Source: Desulfobacula sp. (GTDB lineage: Bacteria > Desulfobacterota > Desulfobacteria > Desulfobacterales > Desulfobacteraceae). Taken from it: a stretch of 32,717 nt of DNA. Where the stretch lies: positions 1-32,717 of the forward strand of contig NZ_JAUWQB010000036.1 of the NCBI RefSeq assembly GCF_030611305.1, given 5' to 3'. Each line of letters begins with the position of its first letter. The first letter of the stretch is position 1. Made by a program: the position numbers and the translations under genes. The notes beneath the pieces were generated by a model. That model was not told where the DNA came from and did not search any database. It worked only from the letters and a program-made list of their open reading frames with translations. This document shows, one piece after another, positions 724 through 14,366 of this stretch.

Positions 724-1512
724 ATGAACAACAATCCTATAGGAATATTTGACTCGGGTGTAGGTGGACTGTCGGTTGCGCGAAGCATAAGGGAAAAACT
801 GCCTAATGAAGATATGGTTTATATAGCTGACTCATTAAATGCCCCTTATGGAAATAAATCTGACGAGTTTATTTCCATGCGATCATCTTATATTATTGAT
901 CACTTAATCGGCATGAAAGCCAAAGCAGTAGTTGTAGCATGTAATACCGCTACAGTTAGTGCCATTGATATGCTGCGTAACAATTACTCAATCCCAATTA
1001 TAGGTGTTGAGCCGGGAATCAAACCCGCAGTGGCTGCAAGTAAGAGCGGTACTATTGGAGTACTGGCTACAGAACAAACAGTAAACAGCGTATCATTTCA
1101 AAATTTAGTTAACCGGTTTTCTGATGAAGCTCACATTGAAACACAATCATGTCCAGGTCTGGTGGAACTAATGGAAACTCATAAATTTGAAGGGCACGAA
1201 ATTAGATATATGCTAGAGAGGTATGTGATGCCGCTGTTGGAAAAAGGGGCTGATACTATTGTTATGGGCTGTACACATTTTGCGTTTCTGACAAAAATAT
1301 TAAGAGAAATAATTGGGAGTGAGTTGAAGATAATAAATACGTATCAAGCAGTTGCAATAGAGACTTCACGACAACTCAATGTAAATAATTTATTGACATC
1401 TAACACTAAAGATGGAGATACAGAATTTTTAAGCAGCAATGTTCATGAAAAAACAGCGTTGTTGTTTGAAAAACTATGGGGAGAACCTGTCATTGTCAGT
1501 GGTTTCGCTTGA
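724..1512 (+). CDS. murI: Glutamate racemase
   Basis: This 262-residue protein is a full-length glutamate racemase, a cofactor-independent cytoplasmic enzyme that makes D-glutamate for peptidoglycan. Visible motifs are IFDSGVGGLSV (residues 8-18), ADSLNAPYGNKS (36-46), ACNTAT with catalytic Cys73, and MGCTHF with catalytic Cys183. The usual Pro after GCTHF is replaced by Ala. The ribosome site (AGGTAATAGAG) is poor and about 12-20 bases from ATG 724. The gene lies beside the trmO cassette and converges on the Asp/Glu racemase-family gene, with 7 bases between the stop codons. It may be the cell's only MurI or an accessory copy; this cannot be told from the window. Confidence 0.9.
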   Translation: MNNNPIGIFDSGVGGLSVARSIREKLPNEDMVYIADSLNAPYGNKSDEFISMRSSYIIDHLIGMKAKAVVVACNTATVSAIDMLRNNYSIPIIGVEPGIKPAVAASKSGTIGVLATEQTVNSVSFQNLVNRFSDEAHIETQSCPGLVELMETHKFEGHEIRYMLERYVMPLLEKGADTIVMGCTHFAFLTKILREIIGSELKIINTYQAVAIETSRQLNVNNLLTSNTKDGDTEFLSSNVHEKTALLFEKLWGEPVIVSGFA

Positions 1513-1519
1513 TCGGCTT

Positions 1520-2230
1520 TTAATGTTTTATCATTTTAGCAACATCAACTATTTCCCGGGCCAAAATTTCAGCGGAATCTATAATTTCAAAGGGAAGATC
1601 AGAACTAATTACGCTAAGTTCTGTGCAGGCGATGATGACAGAGTCAACCCCGGATGAATTAAGGTTTTCACAGATTTCTTTATATGTTTGAACTACTTCC
1701 ACAGATGTGTCCCCGGTTTTAATAGCCTTAATGACGTTAAAAAGTCTCTCCTGAAAAACAGGACCCGGATAGACAACCTCTATTCCAACCGCATGAAATC
1801 GTTTTTCATATAACCCTGTCATGAGCACAGCCGGGGAGGCAAGTATTCCTATTTTACTGCAATCCGGGCTGGTTTGTTTTAGGTGAGAAACAACAAGATC
1901 TATGAGGTTAATTACCGGTATTTTGACAGCATTTGAAACCGTCTCATAATAGTAATGGGCGGTATTACATGCAATCGCCAGGAAGTCTACCCCCCATGAT
2001 TCAAGCCGGCGGGCCATATCGGCCATACACAGGCCAGGGTCTTCTCCATCTCCCTCAATGATGGCTTTTATTCTGGATGGAATCTTGGGATTGTTATCCA
2101 CAATACACCGAATATGATCGATATCATCCAAAGCCGGCGTCAGTTGAATAATACGTTGCATAAGATCCACAGTGGCTTCCGGGCCCATTCCGCCTAAAAT
2201 TCCAACTATTTTTTCTTTTTTTCCTGTCAT
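1520..2230 (-). CDS. Aspartate/glutamate racemase family protein
   Basis: This 236-residue protein belongs to the PLP-independent Asp/Glu racemase (RacD/RacX) superfamily. It has VGILGGMGPEAT near the N-terminus (9-20) and the two-cysteine active site: ACNTAHYYY (Cys88) and ACTELS (Cys202). The ATG directly follows the TAG of the upstream desulfhydrase-family gene (0-base gap), so the two are translationally coupled and end the ridA-ABC-gntR cluster. Family members racemise aspartate, glutamate or other amino acids. The pairing suggests it interconverts the enantiomers of the lyase substrate, such as L- and D-cysteine or cysteate, but this is inference. No feature fixes the substrate. Confidence 0.85.
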   Translation of the reverse strand: MTGKKEKIVGILGGMGPEATVDLMQRIIQLTPALDDIDHIRCIVDNNPKIPSRIKAIIEGDGEDPGLCMADMARRLESWGVDFLAIACNTAHYYYETVSNAVKIPVINLIDLVVSHLKQTSPDCSKIGILASPAVLMTGLYEKRFHAVGIEVVYPGPVFQERLFNVIKAIKTGDTSVEVVQTYKEICENLNSSGVDSVIIACTELSVISSDLPFEIIDSAEILAREIVDVAKMIKH

Positions 2231-3235
2231 CTAACTCTGTCTGAATGTATTCATATAAGCATACAGAGCAGGAGAACCCCCGGTGTGGAGGAAAAGCACA
2301 TTTGAATCTTTTGGGAAATGGCCTTTGCGAACAAGATCAATAAGTCCTGCAGCAGCTTTACCGGAATATACAGGGTCAAGGAGAATAGCCTCAGTTTTGG
2401 CAAACAGTTTTACGGCTTCGACCATGGGGTCTGTTGGAAGGGAATAACCGGGTCCGACATACCGGTCAAAGCAGACAATATCTTCACGGACTAAGCCGCC
2501 TTTTACACCAAGTCTTTCAGCTGTTTCTACAGCCAGTTTGTAAACAATCTCTTCCTGAATATCTTTTGATCTGGAAACATTCATACCACTGATGGGAATC
2601 CCTCCGTTTACGCCTGTCATACCAGCCACCATTCCGGCATGAGTTCCGGCAGAACCTGAAGGGACAACGATGTGATCAATATCAAGACGCATCTCATTGA
2701 GTTGTCCCATGGTCTCTTCTGCGCAAACCGCATATCCCGTGGCACCAATTGAATTGGAAGCACCGCCGGGAATAATATATGGTTTTTTACCGGCTGCCAC
2801 AAGTTCACCGGCCTTTTTGTTCATCTCAACCATCATATCGGAACCGCCTTCAACAACACCAATACTTTTCACACCAAGAAGCTCAAAGAGAAAATTATTC
2901 CCGCTTGCGTCTTTCTTGTAAGATCCCTTTACCCGTTCTTCAAGGATAAGGTGACACTCCAATCCTTCTTTGGCAGACCATGAAGCAGTAAGACGGGCAT
3001 GGTTTGACTGAACAGCTCCGCAGGTAATGATTGTATCTGCACCCTGGTCAAGGGCATCACCAATACAAAACTCAAGCTTTCTTGTTTTATTACCGCCCCC
3101 GGCACCGGGAAGCAGGTCGTCTCGTTTGACATACAGGTTAACTTCTCCACCAAGCGCTTTGCTCAATGACGGCATGGATTCAATGGGGGTCGGGCCTTGA
3201 AGATAGTTTCTTCTGGGAAATTTGGTAAAATTCAT
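2231..3235 (-). CDS. D-cysteine desulfhydrase / L-cysteate sulfo-lyase family PLP enzyme
   Basis: This 334-residue fold-type II PLP enzyme belongs to the ACC deaminase / D-cysteine desulfhydrase family. The PLP lysine is Lys50 in GGGNKTRKLEF, the QSNHAR motif carries Ser77, and SGSAGTHAGM (193-202) is the phosphate-binding loop. ACC deaminases have Glu in DPVYEGK and Leu in HLGG; here these are Ser291 (DPVYSGK) and Thr318 (HTGG), which points to D-cysteine desulfhydrase (DcyD) or the related L-cysteate sulfo-lyase (CuyA) rather than ACC deaminase. Products would be pyruvate and ammonia plus sulfide or sulfite, via 2-aminoacrylate. AAAGGA precedes the ATG. The downstream racemase-family gene is directly abutted. 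The choice between DcyD and CuyA is open. Confidence 0.82.
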   Translation of the reverse strand: MNFTKFPRRNYLQGPTPIESMPSLSKALGGEVNLYVKRDDLLPGAGGGNKTRKLEFCIGDALDQGADTIITCGAVQSNHARLTASWSAKEGLECHLILEERVKGSYKKDASGNNFLFELLGVKSIGVVEGGSDMMVEMNKKAGELVAAGKKPYIIPGGASNSIGATGYAVCAEETMGQLNEMRLDIDHIVVPSGSAGTHAGMVAGMTGVNGGIPISGMNVSRSKDIQEEIVYKLAVETAERLGVKGGLVREDIVCFDRYVGPGYSLPTDPMVEAVKLFAKTEAILLDPVYSGKAAAGLIDLVRKGHFPKDSNVLFLHTGGSPALYAYMNTFRQS

Positions 3236-3331
3236 TTGTGTCCTTTTGCTTTGTATATATTTTGTGTTAAAAATTAAAAACTTGCTTCCAATTCGGAATC
3301 TGCGCCTGTAGATAATTACACTGATCCCAAT

Positions 3332-3359
3332 TTTATACTATGCGTTCTGCTTGATTCAA
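3332..3359 (-). promoter_or_regulatory. Putative sigma-70 promoter for the lyase-racemase pair, with overlapping inverted repeat
   Basis: On the minus strand TTGAAT (3354-3359) and TATAAA (3332-3337) are separated by 16 bases, about 100 nt upstream of the lyase ATG. A small inverted repeat, TGCTTG-ATT-CAAGCA (3348-3362), overlaps the -35 box and could be an operator. The pair may therefore be expressed separately from the transporter genes. The match is by eye only. Confidence 0.4.
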
Positions 3360-3400
3360 GCAAACTTCGACTGTAAGATTAGTATTTACTTTCGCGAGGA

Positions 3401-4069
3401 TTATTCTTCATAGATATCCACGCCAAAGGCAGACATTCGCTCACCCGATTCCATGTAGTGTTCTCTAATTACACGCTCGATAATCTGAAAATTTTTTGTT
3501 TTTAGCGCATCGACAATCTCCTTATGCCTTTCGTAAACCTTTTTTGCAGTAAATAATTTTACCCAATGCTTGTAAAGTAGGAATTTTGAAATGCCCTGGC
3601 AGGCACGACGGCAAAGTTCTACAAGTAGAGCGTTGTCGATGCGAGAGAAGAGAAGGTCATGGAAAGCCTTGTCTAAAGGCGCCTGGTCTGATACAGAGCC
3701 ATTATTGATTGCAATGTTATTCATTTTTGCAATGATATGTTCCAGCTCGGCAATATCCTTGTCTGTATAATTGTCCAGAACCTTTGCCACTGCAGCGGCT
3801 TCAAGTACCCCACCGGTAAAATAGCTATTTTTGATTTGTTTAGCAGTCAGCGCAGTAACATTTTTCCCTCTCTGGGGATGTGATTCGATAAGGCCTTCAC
3901 GAATTAATATCTGCATAGCTTCTCTTATTGGAGCACGGCTGATGGATAGCTCCGAAGCTATGGCCACTTCTGTGATAGGAGCACCTGGAACGAGGTCTCC
4001 GCTGAGAATGCTCTCTTTCACGTAATCGACAACTTGGTCACTATAGGTTTCTTTTTTGAAATTATTCAT
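3401..4069 (-). CDS. GntR-family transcriptional regulator, FCD (FadR/VanR) subfamily
   Basis: The 222-residue protein has a winged helix-turn-helix at residues 10-75 (YSDQVVDYVKESILSGDLVPG, then ELSISRAPIREAMQIL) and an all-helical FCD ligand domain at about 80-210. Metal/ligand-site residues are visible in DKAFHDLLF, YERHKEIVDAL and IREHYMESG. FCD regulators usually repress uptake and catabolic genes and release DNA on binding an acidic substrate, often with a metal ion. It sits between the ABC importer and the lyase gene on the same strand, so it is the obvious local regulator. Its likely target is the palindrome at 7848-7875. The start lacks a good Shine-Dalgarno sequence, suggesting low expression. 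Confidence 0.9.
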   Translation of the reverse strand: MNNFKKETYSDQVVDYVKESILSGDLVPGAPITEVAIASELSISRAPIREAMQILIREGLIESHPQRGKNVTALTAKQIKNSYFTGGVLEAAAVAKVLDNYTDKDIAELEHIIAKMNNIAINNGSVSDQAPLDKAFHDLLFSRIDNALLVELCRRACQGISKFLLYKHWVKLFTAKKVYERHKEIVDALKTKNFQIIERVIREHYMESGERMSAFGVDIYEE

Positions 4070-4090
4070 AGAGTATATATTTTTTTAAAA

Positions 4091-4105
4091 ACAATTCATA
4101 ATTGT
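4091..4105. promoter_or_regulatory. Inverted repeat in the gntR leader (possible autoregulatory site)
   Basis: ACAATT-CAT-AATTGT is a perfect 15-bp inverted repeat between the gntR -10 box and its start codon. It contains the pentamer ATTGT/ACAAT, as does the core of the ridA palindrome, but in everted order. A binding role is inferred from position only. Confidence 0.3.
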
Positions 4106-4131
4106 AATAAAGTCGATCAAAACACCAAGAT

Positions 4132-4160
4132 ATTATAGCATATAGATGTTGGTTTCTCAA
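4132..4160 (-). promoter_or_regulatory. Sigma-70 promoter for gntR
   Basis: On the minus strand TTGAGA (4155-4160, 5/6 match) and a consensus TATAAT (4132-4137) are separated by exactly 17 bases. The predicted start near 4125 leaves a leader of about 55 nt before the gntR ATG. It overlaps the gap after the ABC ATPase gene, so gntR can be made independently of the transporter message. Confidence 0.6.
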
Positions 4161-4166
4161 AGCCAG

Positions 4167-4892
4167 TTAAATTAAAATTTTTCTTAAAAATTCCTTTAAA
4201 CGTTCACTTTCAGGATTTTCAAAAAAAGATTTATCCGTGCCCCGCTCAATAATTCGGCCTTCATCCATGAAAATGATTTCATCGGCCACTTCTTTTGCAA
4301 AGCCCATTTCATGGGTTACAACTGCCATTGTCATACCTGATTGGGCAAGGTCCACCATAACATCTAAAACCTCTTTTATCATTTCAGGATCAAGGGCCGA
4401 TGTGGGTTCGTCAAAAAGCATGATATCCGGTTCCATGGCAAGTGCCCTGGCAATGGCAACACGTTGCTGCTGGCCTCCTGAAAGATTTCCGGGATATTTA
4501 TCAGCCTGTTCTGGAATTCCAACCCTTTCAAGAAGTTCCATGGCTTTTTTGCCTGCCTGTGATTTAGATTGATTTAAAACTTTGGTGGGTGCAATTGTTA
4601 TATTTTCTATTACTTTCATGTGAGGATAAAGTTCAAACCGCTGGAATACCATCCCCATTTTTTGACGAAGCTTTATAAAATTAGTTTTAGGATCATTAAG
4701 AGAAATCCCATCCACACGGATATCACCTTCCTGAAAAGGCTCCAATCCGTTAAGAGATTTTAAAAGCGTGCTCTTGCCGGAACCGGAAGGTCCGCAAATA
4801 ACCACGACCTGTCCCTTGTTAATGGTCTCCTTGACATTATCAAGGACCTTGAGTTCGCCAAACCATTTACTTACATTAATTATCTCAATCAT
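4167..4892 (-). CDS. Polar amino-acid ABC transporter, ATP-binding subunit
   Basis: The 241-residue ATPase is of the GlnQ/GltL (PAAT) type that powers amino-acid import at the cytoplasmic face of the membrane. Walker [10 protein letters not shown] is at 34-42, the Q-loop at [12 protein letters not shown] (81-92), the ABC signature LSGGQ at 137-141, Walker [14 protein letters not shown] at 157-169 and the switch His at 194. All catalytic residues are present. Its ATG directly follows the stop codon of the second permease, so it belongs to the same operon. Confidence 0.95.
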
Positions 4893-5549
4893 TTATGCAT
4901 ACCCTTTTTTAAGTTCCAGTTTTTTGCAAATCCGGCTCATGCTAAAGCAAACAATAAAATAAACCAGTCCTACAAACAGATATAGTTCAACACTTCTCAT
5001 TTCTCTTGCATCCACAATATTTGCAGATCTTAAAAATTCCCGTAGCCCGATAACATAGGCCAACGATGTGTCCTGAAAGACAACAACTGCCTGTGTAATA
5101 AGAGAGGGCATCATATTTTTCAAAGCCTGTGGAATAATAAAATATCTCATGGCCTGCCAATACGTAAATCCACTCGAATAGGCAGCCTCCATCTGACCCT
5201 TTGATATAGATTGTATTCCGGCTCTGATGATTTCTGCGAAATAAGATGCTTCAAAAATAGTAAAAGCAATGACCGCTGAAGTGAAACCACCAATGGGCCT
5301 GCCTATGATAAGCGGCACTAAAAAATAGAACCAGAATATAACCAGAATAAGGGGCTGAGTTCTCATTAGATTAACAAACAAAGTTGCCGGATAGTAAATA
5401 AATTTGAACTTGCTTAACCGACCCATACCCACCAGAATGCCAAGGGTAAGACCCCCTGCAATAGCTATCAATGCCAACTCAAAAGTGGTTACAAGACCAC
5501 CCATTAAAAAGAAAAAATTATTTGAGATAACTTGCCATTCAAAATTCAT
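4893..5549 (-). CDS. Polar amino-acid ABC transporter, permease subunit (GltK-like)
   Basis: This 218-residue inner-membrane protein is a His/Glu/Gln/Arg-type permease with about five membrane segments. The EAA loop, which docks on the ATPase, is EIIRAGIQSISKGQMEAAYSSGF, followed by YFIIPQALKNMMP. It overlaps the preceding permease gene by 4 bases (ATGA), indicating translational coupling. The two permeases presumably form a heterodimeric channel, as in GltJK. Confidence 0.93.
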   Translation of the reverse strand: MNFEWQVISNNFFFLMGGLVTTFELALIAIAGGLTLGILVGMGRLSKFKFIYYPATLFVNLMRTQPLILVIFWFYFLVPLIIGRPIGGFTSAVIAFTIFEASYFAEIIRAGIQSISKGQMEAAYSSGFTYWQAMRYFIIPQALKNMMPSLITQAVVVFQDTSLAYVIGLREFLRSANIVDAREMRSVELYLFVGLVYFIVCFSMSRICKKLELKKGYA

Positions 5550-6277
5550 GAGTTAGCTCCTTTTCTTATAATGAGACCTGGTACCGCTAATCTTTTTTCT
5601 ATCCTGCCCATTGCACCGACCACTATCAGTGTGATGATCATATAAATCAAACAAGCTGCAGTGGTGGCTTCAAGTCCGTGGAAGGTATATGCTTCCACCT
5701 GCTGACTCATAAACGTTGTTTCCAATACACCTACGGTCATGGCAAGAGCAGTATTTTTAAATATTGTTAATATTTCAGTGGTCAATGGAGGAATAACAAG
5801 CCTTATGGCAAGGGGTATAATGATATAACGATATGCCTGATAATGGCTGAAACCAGTACTCAGGGCAGCATTAAACTGATCAGGAGAGATTGAGTTAATA
5901 CCGGCTCTAATTTGCTCTGCCACTCTTGAGGATGAATACAGAGAAAGGCCCACAACAACAATCCAGAATTCAAAATCAGGAATTTCCTGATAGACCCAGG
6001 TTCGCATATTTTCAGGCAGAAGCGACGGTACTGCAAAATACCAGAAGAAAAGCTGCACCAGCAAAGGAATATCCCGGAAAAATTCAGTATAGGCTTCTGC
6101 AAAAATTCTGAGCGGTTTAAATTGGGTAATTCTCAAAGTACCGATGACGATACCGAGCAGCATAGAAAAGATACAACAAAGGACTCCTAATTTAATAGTT
6201 GTTGCTACGCCTTCAAGAATCCAGCCGCCATAGGGGTCTGTCCATAAAATTGACCATTTAAAATCATAGTTCAGCAT
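5546..6277 (-). CDS. Polar amino-acid ABC transporter, permease subunit (GltJ-like)
   Basis: This 243-residue membrane protein has a periplasmic N-terminal stretch typical of GltJ (WTDPYGGWILEGVATTIKLG), several membrane spans, and the EAA loop EQIRAGINSISPDQFNAALSTGF then IIIPLAIRLVIPP. The start at 6277 is preferred over the ATG at 6287-6289 because GGAGA lies just upstream of it, while the upstream ATG has no ribosome site and abuts the hairpin at 6293-6317. The gene order binding protein, J, K, ATPase matches the gltIJKL arrangement for glutamate/aspartate uptake, so an acidic substrate is plausible. Confidence 0.92.
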   Translation of the reverse strand: MLNYDFKWSILWTDPYGGWILEGVATTIKLGVLCCIFSMLLGIVIGTLRITQFKPLRIFAEAYTEFFRDIPLLVQLFFWYFAVPSLLPENMRTWVYQEIPDFEFWIVVVGLSLYSSSRVAEQIRAGINSISPDQFNAALSTGFSHYQAYRYIIIPLAIRLVIPPLTTEILTIFKNTALAMTVGVLETTFMSQQVEAYTFHGLEATTAACLIYMIITLIVVGAMGRIEKRLAVPGLIIRKGANS

Positions 6278-6292
6278 ATGTTTCTCCATCTA

Positions 6293-6317
6293 CGGGAGGT
6301 CCGTAAAAGACCTCCCG
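6293..6317 (-). other. Strong intercistronic hairpin after the binding-protein gene
   Basis: A perfect 9-bp GC-rich stem, CGGGAGGTC (6293-6301) and GACCTCCCG (6309-6317), closes a 7-nt loop between the binding-protein stop and the first permease start. On the transcript no U-run follows, so it is not a standard terminator. Hairpins in this position often protect the binding-protein message from 3' decay and lower expression of the membrane subunits. That role is inferred. Confidence 0.65.
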
Positions 6318-6345
6318 AATATATTTAAAAAGACTATCCTAAAGA

Positions 6346-7218
6346 TTACAACGGCCAGGACTGAAGTTTGATCAATGTTCTAAAGTCATCTGTCATTGGG
6401 AAAGGTACTACTCCGTTGGCACCAAACCATTTCTCATAATACTTCATGTATCTGCCGTCAACAAACATTCTGATAAGCTGTTCATTGATAAAATCTCTGA
6501 AGTTGGAATCATTTTCCGGAAGGATATAGGCATAGGGGTCATAGGAGAGCATTTCACCGAGAATCATATAATCATCAGAATTTTTAACTTTACTTTTCAT
6601 GCCTGCCAGAAGACTTCCGTCAGTGCAGTACGCATTGATTATACCATTATTAAGTGCTAACATTCCCTGGGTATGCTCTTGATAAACAACTAATCTAACT
6701 GCTGGATTAAAATACCCGGATTTATTGAGATTACGGATAGTTTTTTCATTTGTTGAACCTTGAGCAGCACCAATTTTTTTACCGGATAGATCCTTTACTG
6801 TGCTATAACCTTCGCTTTTTTTAACCAACAACTGGCTGCCTGTAAGAAAAAATGTTAATGAGAAGTCAACTGTGTCTTCACGAGGAACTGTATGGGTCGC
6901 AGAACCGGTAACCATATTTAAGTTTCCGTTTGCAACCAAAGGAATTCTCGTTTTCGGGTTAACAACGATGGTTTTAAAGTTAAGTTTTTTGCCAAGTTTT
7001 TCTTCAAGAGCTTTATGAAATTCCTTTGCAAGATCGATACTGAAACCTACATGTTCGTTTTTATCATTATGGAAACCAAAGGGGATTGAGCCATCTCTCA
7101 CTCCGGTAATGAAGTTTCCACTGTCTGAAATTTTTTTAAGCGTATCAGCTGCAATAGCACCTGTTGTAAAAACCAGCATTACCATCAAAATCGTACTGAA
7201 TAACAATTTTTTTTTCAT
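6346..7218 (-). CDS. Amino-acid ABC transporter, periplasmic substrate-binding protein (family 3)
   Basis: This 290-residue protein begins with a clear Sec signal peptide (MKKK, hydrophobic core at 5-20, AIA-A cleavage site near 23-24). The mature part is a family 3 binding protein: GVRDGSIPFGFHNDKNEHVGFSIDLAKEF, then GSATHTVPREDTVDFSLTF, VKDLSGKKIGAAQGST and INAYCTDGSLL. The overall pattern resembles GltI-type glutamate/aspartate receptors. AAGGAG sits 8-9 bases before the ATG, the best ribosome site of the cluster, which fits the excess of binding protein usually needed. The substrate cannot be read from sequence; an acidic amino acid or its sulfonate analogue cysteate is plausible. Confidence 0.93.
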   Translation of the reverse strand: MKKKLLFSTILMVMLVFTTGAIAADTLKKISDSGNFITGVRDGSIPFGFHNDKNEHVGFSIDLAKEFHKALEEKLGKKLNFKTIVVNPKTRIPLVANGNLNMVTGSATHTVPREDTVDFSLTFFLTGSQLLVKKSEGYSTVKDLSGKKIGAAQGSTNEKTIRNLNKSGYFNPAVRLVVYQEHTQGMLALNNGIINAYCTDGSLLAGMKSKVKNSDDYMILGEMLSYDPYAYILPENDSNFRDFINEQLIRMFVDGRYMKYYEKWFGANGVVPFPMTDDFRTLIKLQSWPL

Positions 7219-7323
7219 TTTAAGATCTCCTTTTTGTGTTGTCGGGCTTATACAGACTATGAAAATAGTTTTTTGCCCTTTTTTATTTAATGGGAAGACT
7301 CTTTTGTCTACCTCACTGTTAGA

Positions 7324-7345
7324 CAGTTTTCTTTTTAGAAAACTG
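7324..7345 (-). other. Intercistronic hairpin between ridA and the binding-protein gene
   Basis: CAGTTTTCT (7324-7332) and AGAAAACTG (7337-7345) form a perfect 9-bp stem with a TTTT/AAAA tetraloop in the 190-nt gap after ridA. It is AT-rich and has no long U-run after it on the minus-strand transcript. It may be a weak attenuator or an RNA-processing site separating ridA from the transporter genes. Confidence 0.45.
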
Positions 7346-7409
7346 CATTAGTATTTTAGAAAAATGATTTCCTGAAAGCGAAATACAATTTTCTTCGTGT
7401 TTGTTTGAG

Positions 7410-7796
7410 TCAGGTAATACACACAAATGCCTCTGCCTCAATATTCGATCCCAGGGGAAGCGCGGTGACCTGGACAGTGCTACGAGCCGGAAAGGGATCT
7501 TTAAAGTGTTTGCTGTATACTTCATTTACAGCTTTGAAGTCGTTCATATCGGTCAGAAATAAAGTAATTTTAACAACGTCTGACATGCTTGCTCCAGCCG
7601 CATCAATTATGGCTGCCATATTTTGGAAAACCTGTTCAGCACGAATTGAAATATTCTCTTCAACCAATCTACCAATCTCCGGATCTAATGGCAATTGGCC
7701 TGAAACGAAAAGGAATCCAGCCGCAGTAACTCCTTGCGAGTAGGGGCCTATTGCTTGCGGTGCCTTTTTTGTTGATATAGTACTTATATTGTTCAT
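7410..7796 (-). CDS. ridA: RidA family enamine/imine deaminase
   Basis: This 128-residue protein is a canonical RidA (YjgF/YER057c) trimer subunit that hydrolyses reactive 2-aminoacrylate and related imines to keto acids and ammonia. The key active-site residues are present at the canonical positions, Arg105 (PARSTVQV) and Glu120 (NIEAEAF), together with the AIGPYSQ segment near the N-terminus and VSGQLPLDP. The ATG at 7796 is preferred to the in-frame ATG at 7841 because it gives the normal family length, and AGG lies upstream. As first gene of the cluster it fits with a PLP lyase that releases 2-aminoacrylate. It lies directly behind the promoter and 28-bp palindrome. Confidence 0.93.
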   Translation of the reverse strand: MNNISTISTKKAPQAIGPYSQGVTAAGFLFVSGQLPLDPEIGRLVEENISIRAEQVFQNMAAIIDAAGASMSDVVKITLFLTDMNDFKAVNEVYSKHFKDPFPARSTVQVTALPLGSNIEAEAFVCIT

Positions 7797-7847
7797 AAGC
7801 TTAATTTTCCTATTTATCCTTGAGTTAGTTTTACAATTCATGTTGAC

Positions 7848-7875
7848 TTATGTCGATTGTCGACAATCGACATAA
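7848..7875. promoter_or_regulatory. Perfect 28-bp palindrome: likely GntR operator for the ridA cluster
   Basis: The half-site TTATGTCGATTGTC (7848-7861) is followed with no gap by its exact reverse complement (7862-7875). The core TTGTCGACAA matches the TNGTNNNACNA-type sites of FCD/VanR-subgroup GntR regulators (with one base less in the centre). It lies immediately downstream of the -10 box of the ridA promoter, over the expected transcription start, where a bound repressor would block initiation. The GntR protein encoded at 3401-4069 is the obvious candidate binder. The palindrome is direct observation; the partner is inferred. Confidence 0.75.
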
Positions 7876-7879
7876 ATTA

Positions 7880-7908
7880 TTCATATACTATGACCTTGAC
7901 TGTGTCAA
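7880..7908 (-). promoter_or_regulatory. Sigma-70 promoter of the ridA cluster
   Basis: On the minus strand a consensus TTGACA (7903-7908) is followed after exactly 17 bases by TATGAA (7880-7885, 4/6 match). The predicted start falls near 7873, inside the 28-bp palindrome, about 75 bases upstream of the ridA ATG. Confidence 0.6.
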
Positions 7909-7917
7909 TACTTTTTC

Positions 7918-8013
7918 CTACAAAACAAAATTTAATAATTTTAATATATCATTCAAGGATTTATCGGTTTCCAAGATAATTACGGCTCTGCTCATCCATT
8001 CTTTTATCAACAT
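7918..8013 (-). pseudogene. N-terminal stub of a CBS-domain protein
   Basis: A 31-codon frame reads MLIKEWMSRAVIILETDKSL then NDILKLLNFVL and stops. This matches the start of AcuB-like CBS-domain proteins (M-x-V-K-x-W-M-S-x-x-V-x-T-x-x-x-x-x-S-x-x-D-A-x-x-L-L), of which a normal copy would continue for 100 residues or more. It has a ribosome site (AAAGGAT, 8-14 bases before the ATG) and an apparent sigma-54 promoter upstream. The break falls a few bases before the ridA promoter, so it looks like a deletion junction. Too short to be sure of homology, but promoter, ribosome site and frame agree. Confidence 0.5.
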
Positions 8014-8077
8014 ATTTCAGATCCTTTATTTTGGTGGTCATAAACAACAGGAATTTCGCCTGCTATCTCCAAGTATC

Positions 8078-8093
8078 AGCAATTGCCGTGCCA
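8078..8093 (-). promoter_or_regulatory. Sigma-54 (-24/-12) promoter
   Basis: On the minus strand TGGCACG-GCAA-TTGCT matches the RpoN consensus TGGCACG-N4-TTGCW at every fixed position, with the GG and GC dinucleotides 12 bases apart. A start near 8067 would give a leader of about 54 nt to the CBS-domain stub at 8013, so spacing is right for that gene. Because the stub is broken and no terminator is seen before 7848, transcripts could continue into the ridA cluster. No clear enhancer-protein site was found upstream. Confidence 0.7.
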
Positions 8094-8201
8094 TTCTGTA
8101 AAAATGGTTAAAGCCTTTTGCCTATAAGCATTTGAAACTCTATGCTCATGAAAAAAGCAATCTGTCTTTCAAAAATTTTATTCGATATTCTTGCAACATG
8201 T

Positions 8202-8230
8202 AAAAAAAACTGACGCTGGTTATGGCGTCA
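8202..8230 (-). terminator. Intrinsic terminator after the ACR3 remnant
   Basis: On the minus strand TGACGC-CATAACCA-GCGTCA forms a 6-bp stem followed by G and a run of eight T. It lies about 90 bases downstream of the arsenite-transporter fragment and would stop transcription from the S1-protein gene before the sigma-54 promoter. Confidence 0.65.
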
Positions 8231-8317
8231 AATAGCCAGATACAAATGTGGGTGTCATGCTGTTTGAAATTGATTAAAGCGGTATAACGCTCAAGGAATT
8301 AAAGACTTTCGCCGGGT

Positions 8318-8506
8318 CTACTTGTCAAACCAGGAAGTGGTTCGCTTACAGATACTGACCAGCATCAGCATTACAGGAACTTCTATCAAAACCCCCACAA
8401 CTGTGACCAGTGCTGCTCCTGATGAAAGTCCGAAAATCATCACTGATGTTGCAATAGCAACCTCAAAGTGATTGGATGCCCCGATCATGGTGACCTCAGT
8501 CACCAT
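8318..8506 (-). pseudogene. C-terminal fragment of an ACR3-type arsenite efflux permease
   Basis: The 62-residue frame contains [15 protein letters not shown], then [20 protein letters not shown] and VMLMLV, followed by TSWFDK. This is the last fifth of ACR3-family arsenite transporters (about 340-350 residues, ten membrane spans), including the conserved SNHFEVAIA segment and the final helix. Everything upstream is missing: the frame runs straight into the end of the S1-domain gene, which stops at 8524. No arsR, arsC or other ars gene is nearby. The fragment is most likely a leftover from a deletion or rearrangement. Translation as a tiny membrane protein is possible but unlikely. Confidence 0.75.
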
Positions 8507-8523
8507 ACCACCGAATATTCCTG

Positions 8524-10005
8524 CTATTTTTTCTTTTTCATAGCTTCCAGAAACAGGCTTTCCATGGTTCCAGATGACTTTGATTTTGCATTACCTGTAA
8601 ATTGTTTCCAATTGTCTCCCTCTTTTTGATCAGGCGATGTCAGCGTGATTCTTCTTTTGTCCTCGTCAATCTCCTGGATCATCACCTGAACCGAACTCCC
8701 TGGTTTTAATTTTTCAAAAACCGAAGGGTTTGCTGCGCCGCTGATTTTCGAGGATGGCATCAACCCTGTCACACCCGGTTCAAGATTTATAAAAAGACCG
8801 AATTTTTCTCTTTTTTCCAGACGTCCTTCTACAATTGAATTGACTTCATATCTGACCGAAGCACCGATCCAGGGATCACCCAACGCATCTTTAATACTCA
8901 ATGAAATTCTCTTGCTGTCCATATCAATGGATTTAATCACCACCTGGATACTGTCTCCCACCTGAACCACATCATCGGGCCTGAGCACCCTTCTGGTATG
9001 ACTCATTTCACTGATATGAACCAGGCCGTCCACACCCGGTGCGATTTCCACAAATGCCCCGAACGACGTCAGCCTGACCACTTTTCCGGATACCTGATCC
9101 CCGGTGTTAAAGGCGCTTTCCATGCTGTCCCATGGATTGGATGATGTCTGTTTCATTGACAAAGAAATTTTAAAGGTATCTGATTCCTTTGAGGTTTCTA
9201 TCTTTAACACTTTCACATTCACTACATCGCCCGGTTGAACGATCTCTTCCGCCTTTTCGATACGGGACCAGGACAGTTCTGAAATATGTGCCATTCCCTC
9301 AACACCCGGAATAAGTTCAATAAATGCACCATAAGGCATCAACTTGATTACGGTACCCTGAACCATATCTCCTTCTTTTGTTTTTTCAAAGAAAACTTTT
9401 AGTTTTTCTTTTATCTCTTCATTCAGCAAATCCCGCCTTGATACAACAATATTTCTTCCGCCTTCTTCAAATCGGGTAATTAAAAAATGATGGGTCTGCC
9501 CAATATACTCTTCCTGGTTTTCCACATATTTAACATCTATCTGACTTACAGGACAAAAAGCTCTTTTTCCCATGATGTCCACAGTAAAGCCCCCTTTAAT
9601 CACACCGGTGACTCTGCCTTCAACAGGTGTTCCATTTTGGGACGCCTCTTTGAGCATGATTGCTTTTCCAGCACCGGAGAGTGCTTTAGACAATATAATT
9701 TCACTCTCACTTAATGAGACCACATAAAGTGTAATTTTATCGCCGACCTTATATGCAAATTCACCATTTTCATCCAAAAGCTCTGCTTTTCCCACTACAC
9801 CGTCACTTTTGGTTCCCGTATCAATATATACACTGTTACTGCCGATGGAGATAATCCGGCCCTCGACCTTATCCCCCTGGTTCAGTTCATGACTTATTTT
9901 CGTATCATATGATTCAAAAAGCTCGGCAAAGCTCAATTCTTCCGTATTATCACCTTTATTATCAGCGGTATTATCATCAGCCTTATCATCAATTTGGTCT
10001 GTCAT
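8524..10005 (-). CDS. S1 RNA-binding domain protein with five S1 repeats (ribosomal protein S1-like)
   Basis: This 493-residue cytoplasmic protein starts with an acidic, flexible tail (1-25) and carries five S1/OB-fold repeats at about 43-108, 125-192, 211-286, 300-373 and 388-458, ending in a lysine tail. Repeats 3 and 4 are the most canonical, with [21 protein letters not shown] and [21 protein letters not shown]. Full S1 proteins in Gram-negative bacteria usually have six repeats and about 560 residues, so this is either a short S1 or an accessory paralogue. AGGAGA lies 6 bases before the ATG. The C-terminus abuts the ACR3 remnant, so the last residues could have been altered by that junction, but all five repeats are complete. 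Confidence 0.88.
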
Positions 10006-10118: not shown

Positions 10119-13100
10119 TTACAGGTGTTCGATCATAAAATGCAGCCTGTTTCGGACATTTGCTTCACTCATCCCGGCATCAAAATCCAGATAATAAAGA
10201 TTCATATCAGGGTATACAGATTTAATTTTTATTTCCATACCCTTGGAAACAATATGATTTGCAATACAGCCAAAGGGTTGTAGGCTGAGGACATGATGAA
10301 TGCCCTGTTCTGAAAAAGTGGCGATTTCACCCGGAACAAGCCACCCTTCCCCAAATTGATTGGTCATGGTCAGTATGTTGGAGGCTTTTCGAGCAATCTG
10401 CTTTATGTCTTCAAATGGTGAATAATATTTAAATCTTGAAAACAGCGCGTTTATCTTTTTATGGTATCTGTTTAACAGCCATTCAATGGGAAAACCCAGA
10501 AGATCTGTAAGTTTTCTGTGACGTATTCCTGCCTTAATATTTTCTTTATAATTCACAAGATCCTGGATAAAATAATCGATAATGGGAGGCAGGACAGGTT
10601 CAATGCCTTGCTTGATCAACCAGTGAACCAGGTGCTGATTTGAAAAATAATTATATTTTACATATATCTCACCCACAATCCCCATTTTGGGCAATTGTCT
10701 TTTGTTAACAGGTATTTTATTAAACTCATTAATGGCTTTTTCCAGTATTCTGAAAATTTGGGGATAATTATGGGTCACAATACAATTGCCGACCTTTTCC
10801 ATATAGTGCTGCCGTAAGCTTTGACTCTGCCCGTTTATTTTCTCCCTGGGAGCTGTTGCATAATACATTTTTGCAATGCAATCTGCAAACATGGTGCTCA
10901 CAAACAGAATCTTGGTCTTCATCAACCAGTTGATTTGAAAACCGGGCTGATCAATCAATCCCTGGGAAGTGGTAACAGAAATAATGGGTATATCATCAAA
11001 CCCTGCTCCAATCATCGCTTTTCTGATCAGTGAAAGATAGTTGGATGCCCGGCACTGCCCTCCAGTCTGGGTAATACCAATGGCAATTTCATTGGTCTTA
11101 AACTGGCTGTATTTCAATGCTTTTATGATATCCCCGATCACAATAATCCCTGGATAACAAATATCATTATTGGCATATTGCAGACCCAATTCTACGGATT
11201 GTCTGTCCGGCTTAGGAAGAATTTTAAATTCATAGCCTGCGTTTTTAAATACTGCCGGCAAATAAGAAGAATAGTCTTCTGCAAAAAACGGAGCCCAAAT
11301 GGTTCTTTTTTTATCTTCCTTTCTAAAACTTAAGAATGGTTTTCTTAAGATAGGCCCGGATTTTTTTTGCGATCTTTTTACTTTTAATGACTCCACCATT
11401 GAACGCAGTCTTAACCGGACAGATCCCGGACTTGAGATTTCATCCACCTTTATCAGGGTATGATTTTTTTGACCGGTCCTTAAAATTTCCCTTGCCTCTT
11501 CTATGACGACGGCATCCGGGCCGCAGCCAAATGAATTGAATTGAACCATTTGAATGTTATCCGGTTTTCCGGCCACCCATTTTGCCGCATTATAAATTCT
11601 GTTGGGATAGGACCACTGGGTTACCACTTGAACATCCTTAAGGGATTCAAAATCAGGGGGAATCGCATCCTCCGTGATAATATCTGCGCCGAGACCTGTC
11701 AGTATATCAGGAATTTTGTGATTTATCAGCCCATCGGAATGATAGGGTCTTCCTGCCAGTACAATGAGCAGGGAATTGTTCTTCTCTGCCTGATCAACGA
11801 TTTTCAGGGCCTTGTTTCTGATCTGGTGTTTAACTTCTTTCTGGGCAACAAGAGCTGCGTCAAACGCTTTATAAATTTGCGGCTTGTTGATATTAAATAA
11901 TTTTAAATACGCAACACAGGTTTTCCTCAACAAGATTTCATCATTAAAGTTCACCACGGGTTTATCCAGAGGGATACCAAATCTTTTTTCAGGATTGATG
12001 GTACTGTCAATCACATCGGCATAGCTGGATACAATAGGACAATTGTAGGTATTTACGGCCTGTTCATATTCCTTTTTTTCAAACACCACAATGGGATAAA
12101 AAATCCTGTCCACTTTTTTTTGGGCCAGTTCATAAATATGTCCATGAGCCAGTTTGGCAGGAAAGCAGATATTATCAGACATCACTGTTCCTATGCCCTT
12201 TTCACTCAAACTGACGGTGGAACGCGGCGACAGATAGATATTGATCCCGCAACGGGTAAAAAGTGCATGCCAGAATACAAAATTCTCATAAAAATTAAGA
12301 CATCGCGGTATCCCGATGGTCATCACCGGGTGATCATGGGGGGAAAGGTCCCGGTTGAAAATCAGATCATTCTTATACCTTACAAAATTAAACCCCCTGT
12401 CTTGCTGGGTCTCCTTTAAGGTATAATATTTTTCACACTTATTGCCGGAAAAAAAGGATTTTCCATTGGAAAAAACAAATCGGGTTACTGCACAATTATT
12501 TTCGCACCCCTTGCAGGACATCTGGCTTGTTTGATAGCTGTCAATGTGTTCAAGCTTTGACAGCCCCGGAAAACCGGTTTGCGATGCAGGATCTGCCACA
12601 TAATCATTAAAGGCAACCAAAGCTGTGCCAAAGGCACCCATCAGTTCAGGAATTTTAGAATATGTCACTGCCTTGCCCGTCATCAGCTCCAGGACCCGAA
12701 CAATAGAAGGGTTTTTAAACGTCCCGCCCTGCAATACAATATGATCCCCCATCTCAGACATGTTACGAATTTTTAAGACTTTAAACAGACAATTTTTGAT
12801 CACAGAGTAGGACAATCCTGCGCTGATGTCTTCCACTGCTGCATTTTCCCGTAAAGACTGCTTAATCTTTGAATTCATGAATACCGTACACCGGGTACCC
12901 AGGTCACAGGGTTCCTTTGCGTGACAGGCAAGGCGTGCGAACTCCTCAATACGATAATTTAAAGAATTGGCAAGGGTTTCCAAAAAAGACCCGCATCCGG
13001 AAGAACAGGCCTCGTTCACTTCGATCCGGTTGATGACCCCGTGGTCAATAAAAATAGCTTTCATATCCTGCCCGCCGATATCCAGGATAAATGAAACCTC

Positions 13101-14366
13101 AGGATCGATAAACCGTGCCGCCGTATAATGGGCAATGGTTTCAACAATCCCTTTATCAATATTAAATGCTGCCCTGATTAAATCCTCACCATATCCTGCC
13201 ACAACACTTCTAACAATTTTCACCTTAGGATTGAGTTCAAAAACCTGTTTCCTGAATTCAACCAACCCTTTAATTACTGCCTTGATCGGGTTTCCGCCAT
13301 TATTTGTGTACCAGGAAAACAATATCTCCTTATTTTCTCCGATGATAACGATCTTTGTGGTGGTTGATCCCGAATCAATACCGATGAAACAGTCTTTTCC
13401 CTCATAAGTTTCAATGGTGCAGGTTTGAAGGGGGATCGTTTTAGACTGTTCTTTCCAGTGCAAAAAATGGTGTTGACTCTTAAACAGGGGATCAATTCGA
13501 TCCTTGACCGGTTCCGGATTTTCAAGTTCTTTTTCCAGAGCTTTGATTACCTGGCTGACAGATATGGAAAGGGGCGGATGTCTATCAAACATGGCTGCGC
13601 CGATTGCCGGTATAAGTTCTGATCTTTCGGGCATCACCATATCAGAATCAGAAAAGTTCAAAATCCTCAAAAACATGTTCACAAGCTCGGGAAGGAACGT
13701 GAACACACCGCCGCATAAAAGTATTTTGGGTTTTATATCCACTCCCCTTGCAAGGGAATTGATGCATTGAACCGCCACTGCATGGAATATGGATGCGGCT
13801 ATATCCTTGTGGGAAATATTACGGCTGAGCATATTTTGAACATCAGTTTTGGCAAACACACCGCACCTGGATGCCACAGGATAGATATGGTTATGGGATC
13901 CGGCCAGATCATTCAATTGAAAAGGGGTAATATCCAACAAGGTGGCCATTTGATCAATAAAGCTGCCTGTCCCGCCTGCGCAGCTTCCATTCATCCTTAT
14001 ATCAGGCGGTTTTCCCTTATTTAAAAAAATAATTTTTGAATCTTCTCCGCCAATATCCACGGCAGTTCTGACATCAGGATATTTTTTATTTATTGCAGCA
14101 TTGGTTGCGATCACTTCCTGAACAAAAGGAAAATCAAGTTTTTTTGAAGCCCCCAATGCTGCAGACCCGGTTAACTTCAGATCAAGAAAGCAATCACCTT
14201 TTTGATCAAGAACATCATGAAAAAATAACGTCACCGTCTCATAAATTTTTGCGTGGTGTCGCTGATAGTCTGAAAAAACAAGGGTTTTATTTTGATCCAG
14301 CAGGACAATTTTCGCAGTTGTGGAGCCGATATCCAGGCCTGCTTTATACAGTTTTGCCTGCTCCAT
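10119..14366 (-). CDS. Giant tandem acyl-CoA dehydratase activase-related protein (BcrA/BadF ATPase x2 + DUF2229 + C-terminal region)
   Basis: This 1415-residue protein joins two BcrA/BadF/HgdC ATPase modules to a long C-terminal part. Module 1 (1-265) has LDIGSTTAK (11-19), VDIGGEDSK (103-111), SCAGGTGSF with Cys129 and RCGVF with Cys168. Module 2 (326-600) has IDSGSTTTK (330-338), DIGGQDMK (429-436), ACSSGCGSF with Cys454 and Cys458, and RCTVF with Cys493. In single-domain activators the two cysteines bind a [4Fe-4S] cluster at a dimer interface; here one chain can supply both halves. A Cys-rich DUF2229 region follows near residue 650 (CKGCENNC) and the rest resembles 2-hydroxyacyl-CoA dehydratase D-component-like proteins. 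Such fusions occur in many anaerobes without a known substrate. No dehydratase genes adjoin it. Confidence 0.88.
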   Translation of the reverse strand: MEQAKLYKAGLDIGSTTAKIVLLDQNKTLVFSDYQRHHAKIYETVTLFFHDVLDQKGDCFLDLKLTGSAALGASKKLDFPFVQEVIATNAAINKKYPDVRTAVDIGGEDSKIIFLNKGKPPDIRMNGSCAGGTGSFIDQMATLLDITPFQLNDLAGSHNHIYPVASRCGVFAKTDVQNMLSRNISHKDIAASIFHAVAVQCINSLARGVDIKPKILLCGGVFTFLPELVNMFLRILNFSDSDMVMPERSELIPAIGAAMFDRHPPLSISVSQVIKALEKELENPEPVKDRIDPLFKSQHHFLHWKEQSKTIPLQTCTIETYEGKDCFIGIDSGSTTTKIVIIGENKEILFSWYTNNGGNPIKAVIKGLVEFRKQVFELNPKVKIVRSVVAGYGEDLIRAAFNIDKGIVETIAHYTAARFIDPEVSFILDIGGQDMKAIFIDHGVINRIEVNEACSSGCGSFLETLANSLNYRIEEFARLACHAKEPCDLGTRCTVFMNSKIKQSLRENAAVEDISAGLSYSVIKNCLFKVLKIRNMSEMGDHIVLQGGTFKNPSIVRVLELMTGKAVTYSKIPELMGAFGTALVAFNDYVADPASQTGFPGLSKLEHIDSYQTSQMSCKGCENNCAVTRFVFSNGKSFFSGNKCEKYYTLKETQQDRGFNFVRYKNDLIFNRDLSPHDHPVMTIGIPRCLNFYENFVFWHALFTRCGINIYLSPRSTVSLSEKGIGTVMSDNICFPAKLAHGHIYELAQKKVDRIFYPIVVFEKKEYEQAVNTYNCPIVSSYADVIDSTINPEKRFGIPLDKPVVNFNDEILLRKTCVAYLKLFNINKPQIYKAFDAALVAQKEVKHQIRNKALKIVDQAEKNNSLLIVLAGRPYHSDGLINHKIPDILTGLGADIITEDAIPPDFESLKDVQVVTQWSYPNRIYNAAKWVAGKPDNIQMVQFNSFGCGPDAVVIEEAREILRTGQKNHTLIKVDEISSPGSVRLRLRSMVESLKVKRSQKKSGPILRKPFLSFRKEDKKRTIWAPFFAEDYSSYLPAVFKNAGYEFKILPKPDRQSVELGLQYANNDICYPGIIVIGDIIKALKYSQFKTNEIAIGITQTGGQCRASNYLSLIRKAMIGAGFDDIPIISVTTSQGLIDQPGFQINWLMKTKILFVSTMFADCIAKMYYATAPREKINGQSQSLRQHYMEKVGNCIVTHNYPQIFRILEKAINEFNKIPVNKRQLPKMGIVGEIYVKYNYFSNQHLVHWLIKQGIEPVLPPIIDYFIQDLVNYKENIKAGIRHRKLTDLLGFPIEWLLNRYHKKINALFSRFKYYSPFEDIKQIARKASNILTMTNQFGEGWLVPGEIATFSEQGIHHVLSLQPFGCIANHIVSKGMEIKIKSVYPDMNLYYLDFDAGMSEANVRNRLHFMIEHL

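Follow-up and report, generated by a model that had tools for sequence, protein, structure and literature searches.

A block of eight co-directional genes on the minus strand of a Desulfobacula-like sulfate reducer contig (NZ_JAUWQB010000036.1, positions 1-32,717, assembly GCF_030611305.1, here G000; this whole stretch of 32,717 nt is termed the window) is probably an operon for the catabolism of cysteate. In the open reading frame (ORF) list the genes run from 7841 (ridA) down to 1520 (a racemase), and NCBIfam and Pfam profile searches confirmed the families of all eight, i.e. RidA, the binding protein, two permeases and ATPase of an amino-acid-type ATP-binding cassette (ABC) importer, a GntR regulator, a pyridoxal phosphate (PLP)-dependent lyase and the racemase, as the first-pass annotation of this DNA had proposed. 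In the pathway that we infer, the importer would take up L-cysteate, an aspartate analogue; the racemase, CuyB, would interconvert L- and D-cysteate; the lyase, CuyA, would eliminate sulfite from D-cysteate, leaving 2-aminoacrylate; and RidA (or water) would convert the latter to pyruvate and ammonia. The sulfite would pass to dissimilatory sulfite reductase as an electron acceptor, the ATP cost of sulfate activation being saved, and pyruvate would serve as the source of carbon and electrons. This route of import, racemization, cleavage, 2-aminoacrylate clearance and sulfite respiration, already outlined in the first-pass annotation, fits the gene families and the presence of dsrA and aprA in the assembly.

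The assignment of cysteate as substrate is well supported because both enzymes exceed the cut-offs of curated equivalog models, the lyase that of the D-cysteate sulfo-lyase CuyA (NF052482) and the racemase that of the cysteate racemase CuyB (NF052483; Table 1). A lyase from the megaplasmid of Ruegeria pomeroyi DSS-3, used as a positive control, scored 553 bits on the same CuyA model; it is 50% identical to the window lyase, adjoins genes for a LysR regulator and a sulfate exporter, and can be equated by gene order with SPOA0158, the annotated cuyA of that organism in the accessible part of PMC4334477. The second full-length lyase of the family in the window's own genome (locus L116), used as a negative control, scored 344.7 bits, below the CuyA cut-off. 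According to excerpts of PMC11382572, D-cysteate is the preferred substrate of CuyA, with pyruvate, ammonia and sulfite as products, and CuyB interconverts L- and D-cysteate.

A rival proposal is that the lyase is a D-cysteine desulfhydrase, in which case the block would handle D-/L-cysteine or cystine and release sulfide. The lyase does belong to the same PLP family, and its best PDB match, 7ysk, is named D-cysteine desulfhydrase. However, it falls short of the D-cysteine desulfhydrase (DcyD) equivalogs (288.6 vs 429, 276.3 vs 469 and 274.3 vs 610 bits) while exceeding that of CuyA, the adjacent racemase exceeds the CuyB cut-off, the cystine model gives the binding protein 74.3 bits where 312 are required, and a further lyase of the family, with a separate ABC importer, is encoded in this genome (L116). 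This alternative is thus very unlikely; D-cysteine as main substrate was rejected on the curated equivalog cut-offs, in agreement with the leaning of the earlier annotation towards cysteate. The cut-offs of 1-aminocyclopropane-1-carboxylate (ACC) deaminase equivalogs, among the matches listed, were not reached by the lyase either. At the alignment columns of the Glu and Leu of ACC deaminase it has Ser291 and Thr318, positions which we take to separate lyase activities from ACC deaminase, and both residues, first read from the translation, were borne out by the alignment.

The L116 cluster (G000:C123, 5055-9043) comprises a second ABC importer, for whose binding protein the nearest models are those of basic amino acids and cystine, and a D-cysteine desulfhydrase-family lyase that is 41-42% identical to the window lyase. 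In Escherichia coli-type DcyD/FliY systems a D-cysteine desulfhydrase is accompanied by a cystine ABC importer. The window block is similar in that a lyase of this family stands beside an amino-acid ABC importer, but the E. coli system has a cystine-type importer and no racemase, and it is L116 that resembles it more.

The racemase abuts the lyase (2231/2230), as previously described, and its Cys88 and Cys202 align with the two cysteines of aspartate racemase 1jfl, in keeping with the catalytic cysteine pair of the Asp/Glu racemase family. Similar pairs are found on plasmids of Deinococcus deserti, Sulfitobacter and Mesorhizobium (CuyA 535-552 bits, CuyB 271-280 bits). The CuyA/CuyB cysteate pathway, i.e. 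racemase plus D-cysteate sulfo-lyase, was reportedly set out by Liu et al. in 2024 (J. Biol. Chem. 300:107371); the window resembles it in that both enzymes are over the equivalog cut-offs, adjacent and co-directional, but adds RidA, the amino-acid-type ABC importer and GntR. The racemase-lyase pair is therefore not a new combination, since it is named in print (in the accessible text of PMC11382572) and is plasmid-borne elsewhere, and the earlier presentation of the gene combination as an inference does not hold for this pair. The newer parts are the putatively dedicated importer and the conserved candidate operator in front of the block.

The assembly (3.57 Mb, 159 contigs, 97.4% complete) contains dsrA (600.6 bits, cut-off 392.85) and aprA (953.7 bits, cut-off 641.75), and the rows nearest to the window CuyA in the CuyA tree are from Desulfobacula metagenome-assembled genomes. 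The host is therefore regarded as a Desulfobacula-like sulfate reducer, consistent with the sulfate-reducing lifestyle assumed from the outset, and the sulfite released could thus be respired. Some sulfate reducers are able to respire the sulfonate cysteate. The block has no exporter gene, of the type present in the cuy loci of R. pomeroyi and Polaromonas, and this would suit sulfite respiration; the argument is a weak one, because the gene tables for the Deinococcus, Sulfitobacter and Mesorhizobium cuy loci, which are incomplete, show no exporter either.

Gene neighbourhoods were counted for 71 CuyA hits in 87 non-redundant loci, the window included. CuyB directly follows CuyA in 47/62 hits with at least 1.2 kb of downstream sequence (window included) and RidA directly precedes it in 36/69 with at least 0.9 kb upstream, so the block represents more than chance neighbours. 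Among the 39 hits with long flanks, a tripartite ATP-independent periplasmic (TRAP) system lies within 9 kb in 20 and an HpsN-like gene in 18, and the ABC importer of the window type accompanies CuyA in 4, which come from three genomes only (the window, L089 with two CuyA, and L097). A RidA-importer-CuyA arrangement as a generally conserved unit was rejected on this basis. The first-pass annotation had proposed asking whether racemase, lyase and importer are kept together in relatives; this is so for the racemase and lyase, whereas the importer is linked to them weakly by position (window, L089 and L097) and better by a shared operator.

Among the lines of evidence, this shared candidate operator argues most strongly for a common substrate of regulator, importer and lyase. 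A perfect 28-base palindrome, TTATGTCGATTGTCGACAATCGACATAA, with a core, TGTCGACA, and flanking half-sites, lies between the presumed TTGACA promoter and ridA. Its 22-base centre occurs once in the 3.57-Mb assembly at up to 3 mismatches. The 12-base centre was rejected as stand-alone evidence, there being 1 match in the window at up to 2 mismatches vs 2.05 in shuffles, so the case for an operator rests on the 28-base symmetry and on conservation; exact copies of the 12-base centre are present in 2/136 loci (L122 and L123), in both in front of the importer binding protein.

The core is found in the ridA, cuyA or binding-protein leader of 10/11 loci whose GntR shares at least 50% identity with that of the window, L050 being scored as a miss although its contig starts inside gntR, compared with only 2/51 other cuyA loci (Fisher p 6.5e-9). 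It also occurs in all three loci that have an importer orthologue but no visible cuyA, as an exact copy in two and with one change in the third. When the window is excluded, TGTCGACA is the best of all 8-mers (11/13 leaders vs 2/51, p 7.6e-9); both Fisher p-values overstate independence, because the loci are related. Two sets of 11 among the 87 loci were set aside before counting, namely 11/62 other-cuyA loci whose leader sequence was lacking and those that had neither cuyA nor importer. An exact TTGACA is present 29-46 bases upstream of the core in 13/16 compared leaders, the script having picked the best match in each.

Ten of these regulators form one group in the GntR tree, with moderate support (88/93, not starred), and the CuyA tree mixes loci of this GntR group with others. 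In the five genomes with two cuyA loci (L057/L073, L063/L070, L066/L076, L065/L059 and L060/L061), the leader site is present in 5/5 of the loci with this GntR and in 1/5 of the others, the leaders compared being 351-461 and 164-331 bases long, respectively. Regulators at least 50% identical to that of the window were found in 10 of 389 sampled genomes of the class, in 9/10 together with CuyA; in one of these nine, L156, which was fetched after the hypothesis had been formed, the site lies 67 bases before ridA. The core, of the form T-GTC-GAC-A, meets the FadR-type consensus, is near the promoter, and is common to the loci of orthologues, as is appropriate for a predicted operator; the consensus given for the FadR subfamily in the available part of PMC4494728 is NyGTM-N0-1-KACNy, with extra half-sites at 7-12 nt also known.

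The palindrome might instead be bound by a different regulator, or act as a transcription terminator. Thus, a plus-strand scan lists it as terminator-like, the leaders of L111 and L061 have the core with no GntR at least 50% identical in the locus, and in L059 the core is elsewhere, between cuyA and cuyB. The palindrome nevertheless tracks this GntR rather than the CuyA tree, as the paired loci illustrate, and the core suits FadR-type regulators (PMC4494728, in the part available), so this alternative is considered unlikely. Since the operator core is common to GntR, cuyA and importer loci, the regulator, importer and lyase are linked as one putative regulon. The GntR most likely acts as a repressor of the ridA promoter, on which it would bind the TGTCGACA palindrome just after the -10 element, with cysteate or a product predicted to bring about its release. 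More tentatively, and with the balance of our opinion somewhat against it, the GntR may be a dedicated cysteate sensor of sulfate reducers, i.e. one regulator and one operator (TGTCGACA plus half-sites) would control ridA and cuyA together with, depending on the genome, the ABC importer or a TRAP system and a protein of family F14 (described below), and cysteate would be a switchable electron acceptor apart from the DHPS (2,3-dihydroxypropane-1-sulfonate)-type cuyAB clusters in the same genomes.

Genomic context, the operator and pocket similarity together suggest cysteate as the substrate of the importer. Its layout is like that of GltIJKL, as first described, but the curated GltI and GltK cut-offs were not reached (Table 1) and membership is not claimed. 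The best PDB sequence match for the binding protein is 2ia4/2vha, which we take to be a Glu/Asp-binding protein. Seven polar or charged pocket positions, assumed here to contact the ligand, have the same residue in 2ia4 and in the window protein (Arg41, Arg91, Ser106, Thr108, Arg113, His182 and Asp200 in the latter), and Ser72 of 2ia4 is Pro88 in the window; a literature search for a contact list of the binding protein gave nothing useful. The same seven residues are kept in three general paralogues, and a cysteate pocket signature was accordingly rejected (11 positions having been compared). Thus, an acidic amino acid fits the importer, with cysteate not singled out. At 2ia4 positions 142/146, four cuy-linked proteins have Glu and Arg vs Ile and Asp in the paralogues, and in one cuy-linked binding protein, that of G042, position 90 is Ala instead of Ser, from neither of which is a conclusion drawn.

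A search for importer orthologues in 145 genomes, the window's own included, gave binding proteins at least 79% identical in G000, G061 (L089), G042 (L121), G079 (L122) and G038 (L123), and a more distant one (61%) in G110 (L097). The G079 and G038 matches are partial (about the first third), and the G042 importer is whole and away from cuyA. In L123, an apparent remnant of the ridA end is present between operator and importer (28/33 bases gap-free to the stop codon, a score reached by 1/500 shuffles); when such a remnant was sought before the importer in the four loci, none was found in L089, L121 or L122.

It could be argued that the importer serves glutamate/aspartate uptake in general and is located beside cuyAB by chance, with cysteate entering incidentally or by another route, e.g. 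a TRAP system. The seven pocket positions shared with general paralogues are as expected on this proposal, as is the greater frequency of TRAP systems than of this importer near long-flank CuyA hits (20 and 4, the latter from three genomes, of 39). However, the operator core found in cuyA loci with this GntR recurs in L121, L122 and L123, three importer-orthologue loci with no visible cuyA, and the importer is again found with cuyA in L089 and L097; a general uptake role is judged improbable.

An ABC importer beside cuyA has a precedent in R. pomeroyi, because SPO2658-2661, listed for cysteate in the accessible part of PMC9038784, adjoin by locus number SPO2657, given as cuyA2 in excerpts of PMC9870897. 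A further R. pomeroyi system, cuyTUVW (SPO3040-3043), is linked to cysteate by mutant growth, a pooled mutant screen having missed it, according to the text available from PMC10130141. The cuyARZ system and ABC importers of R. pomeroyi DSS-3 are therefore similar to the window in having a CuyA of the same equivalog and ABC cysteate importers, one of them next to a cuyA by locus number. By contrast with the window, DSS-3 has genes for a LysR regulator and a member of the sulfate-exporter family beside its cuyA and TRAP genes upstream, and its importers are likened to that of the window by role and, in one case, by locus position.

Several observations weigh against the assignment of the block as a dedicated cysteate operon. 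The importer is adjacent to cuyA in only three genomes, and the binding-protein pocket, so far as alignment can tell, does not separate cysteate from glutamate or aspartate. Taurinivorans muris has CuyA yet does not grow with cysteate, according to excerpts of PMC10507020. On the GntR side, CuyB does not follow CuyA in 9/11 GntR loci, one has a 76-residue CuyB piece, and whole CuyB is present only in the window; further, neither importer type was seen in 6/11, so the core of the regulon may be ridA plus cuyA without racemase or importer. In the tenth genome with this GntR (G051, L153), the regulator gene lies in a stretch with transposases, next to F14 and part of a TRAP system; no cuyA accompanies it and there is no operator site nearby, nor is there one near a GntR fragment in G042. 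Within the window, there are gaps of 97 and 165 bases upstream of gntR and cuyA, respectively, and an 11-of-12 promoter-like site before gntR, although shuffled sequences yield such sites at least as often as the region does; cuyAB may therefore not depend on the operator alone, and may have promoters of its own. Finally, a sister genome, G025 (L098), has S1, cuyA, cuyB and murI in the same order, but the stretch corresponding to window bases 3253-8527, with ridA, the importer, gntR and the operator, is missing. The reading frame of its S1 gene continues into the cuyA leader, overlapping the cuyA start, and ends KKKKDTK, whereas the S1 genes of the window and three other distinct ones (five rows, two duplicates) end KKK or KKKK. 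The G025 arrangement looks like a deletion, so the importer-ridA-gntR part would be dispensable or replaceable.

Other Desulfobacterota have TRAP-HpsN-DegT-RidA-CuyA-CuyB-GntR clusters, which are similar to the window block in their CuyA (up to 89% identical), CuyB, RidA and possession of a GntR. They differ in having their own TRAP importer, a DHPS dehydrogenase and a DegT aminotransferase, and their GntR is 25-33% identical to that of the window. In the window block a single organism has candidates for the full set of components, from importer, racemase and lyase to imine hydrolase, regulator and operator, and the block is apart from the DHPS-linked cuyAB clusters of its relatives, so uptake and regulation are directly testable. 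Among the literature matches listed, in several cases the best 12-20 of many, cysteate uptake in sulfate reducers and its switching-on were not shown, and neither a GntR nor an ABC importer for cysteate was found in a sulfate reducer, which is weak evidence of absence as the key CuyB paper was not among the texts covered.

An HpsN-like dehydrogenase and a DegT-type aminotransferase are present together in 28/87 non-redundant loci (L062, L051, L093 etc., e.g. L093:3965-6481), and 28/29 HpsN loci also contain cuyA. One HpsN representative scored 510 bits to sulfopropanediol 3-dehydrogenase 8v35 and ~213 to histidinol dehydrogenases. The HpsN and DegT set could convert DHPS or cysteinolate to cysteate, and similar genes are present on a Mesorhizobium plasmid. 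Locus L124 (G042:C1:352500-371500) has a TRAP-HpsN-DegT-RidA-CuyB-GntR cluster in which no CuyA was seen, the G042 CuyA that is over the cut-off being located elsewhere.

Table 1. Features of the putative cysteate block in window coordinates
Feature	Position	Strand	Basis
-35 element TTGACA of presumed block promoter	7903-7908	-	read from sequence
Presumed -10 element TATGAA	7880-7885	-	17 bases past -35; weak, absent from promoter-scan list
Candidate GntR operator (28-base palindrome, core plus half-sites)	7848-7875		symmetry and conservation
ridA, 2-aminoacrylate/imine deaminase	7410-7841	-	TIGR00004, 162.4 bits (cut-off 106.25); start uncertain, perhaps ~7796
Periplasmic binding protein, glutamate/aspartate-like ABC importer	6346-7218	-	best NCBIfam match PRK10797, 152.4 bits (below cut-off 375)
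ABC importer permease A	5546-6289	-	PF00528; HEQRo_perm_3TM, 65.7 bits (cut-off 42.2)
ABC importer permease B	4893-5549	-	closest model GltK, 195.4 bits (below cut-off 318)
ABC importer ATPase	4167-4892	-	closest model GlnQ, 328.9 bits (below cut-off 379)
GntR/FCD (FadR-type) transcription regulator	3401-4069	-	PF00392 and PF07729; GntR tree
cuyA, predicted PLP-dependent D-cysteate sulfo-lyase	2231-3235	-	NF052482, 520.9 bits (cut-off 450)
cuyB, predicted cofactor-independent cysteate racemase, Cys88/Cys202	1520-2230	-	NF052483, 277.9 bits (cut-off 190)

The genes are closely packed in places, with a 4-base overlap of permeases B and A and permease B abutting the ATPase. The span of 1410-7908 originally given for the block is correct but for two stretches: 1410-1512 belongs to the end of murI (724-1512, plus strand), which converges on the racemase and is outside the block, and 7842-7908 holds the presumed promoter and operator.

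Members of family F14 are ~420 residues long, have conserved His, Asp, Glu and Asn residues, and are encoded with cuyA and, in most cases, a TRAP system, e.g. L077:6020-7282, L072:12090-13319, L090:4199-5503, L096, L097, L054, L153 and L156. The family has no Pfam or NCBIfam match near the cut-off (best 17.6 and 13.8 bits), no PDB entry matched it in sequence below E 0.04, and a fold search of the PDB with a structural model (mean pLDDT 74.7) yielded nothing at or below E 0.001. Elsewhere in the window, a guess that the 67 residues encoded at ~8321-8521 come from the end of an ACR3-type transporter was dropped, as Pfam gave no support, and 10119-14366 encodes a relative of CoA-enzyme activases, 1415 residues long, in which a DUF2229 domain accompanies two stretches of BadF/BadG-type ATPase.

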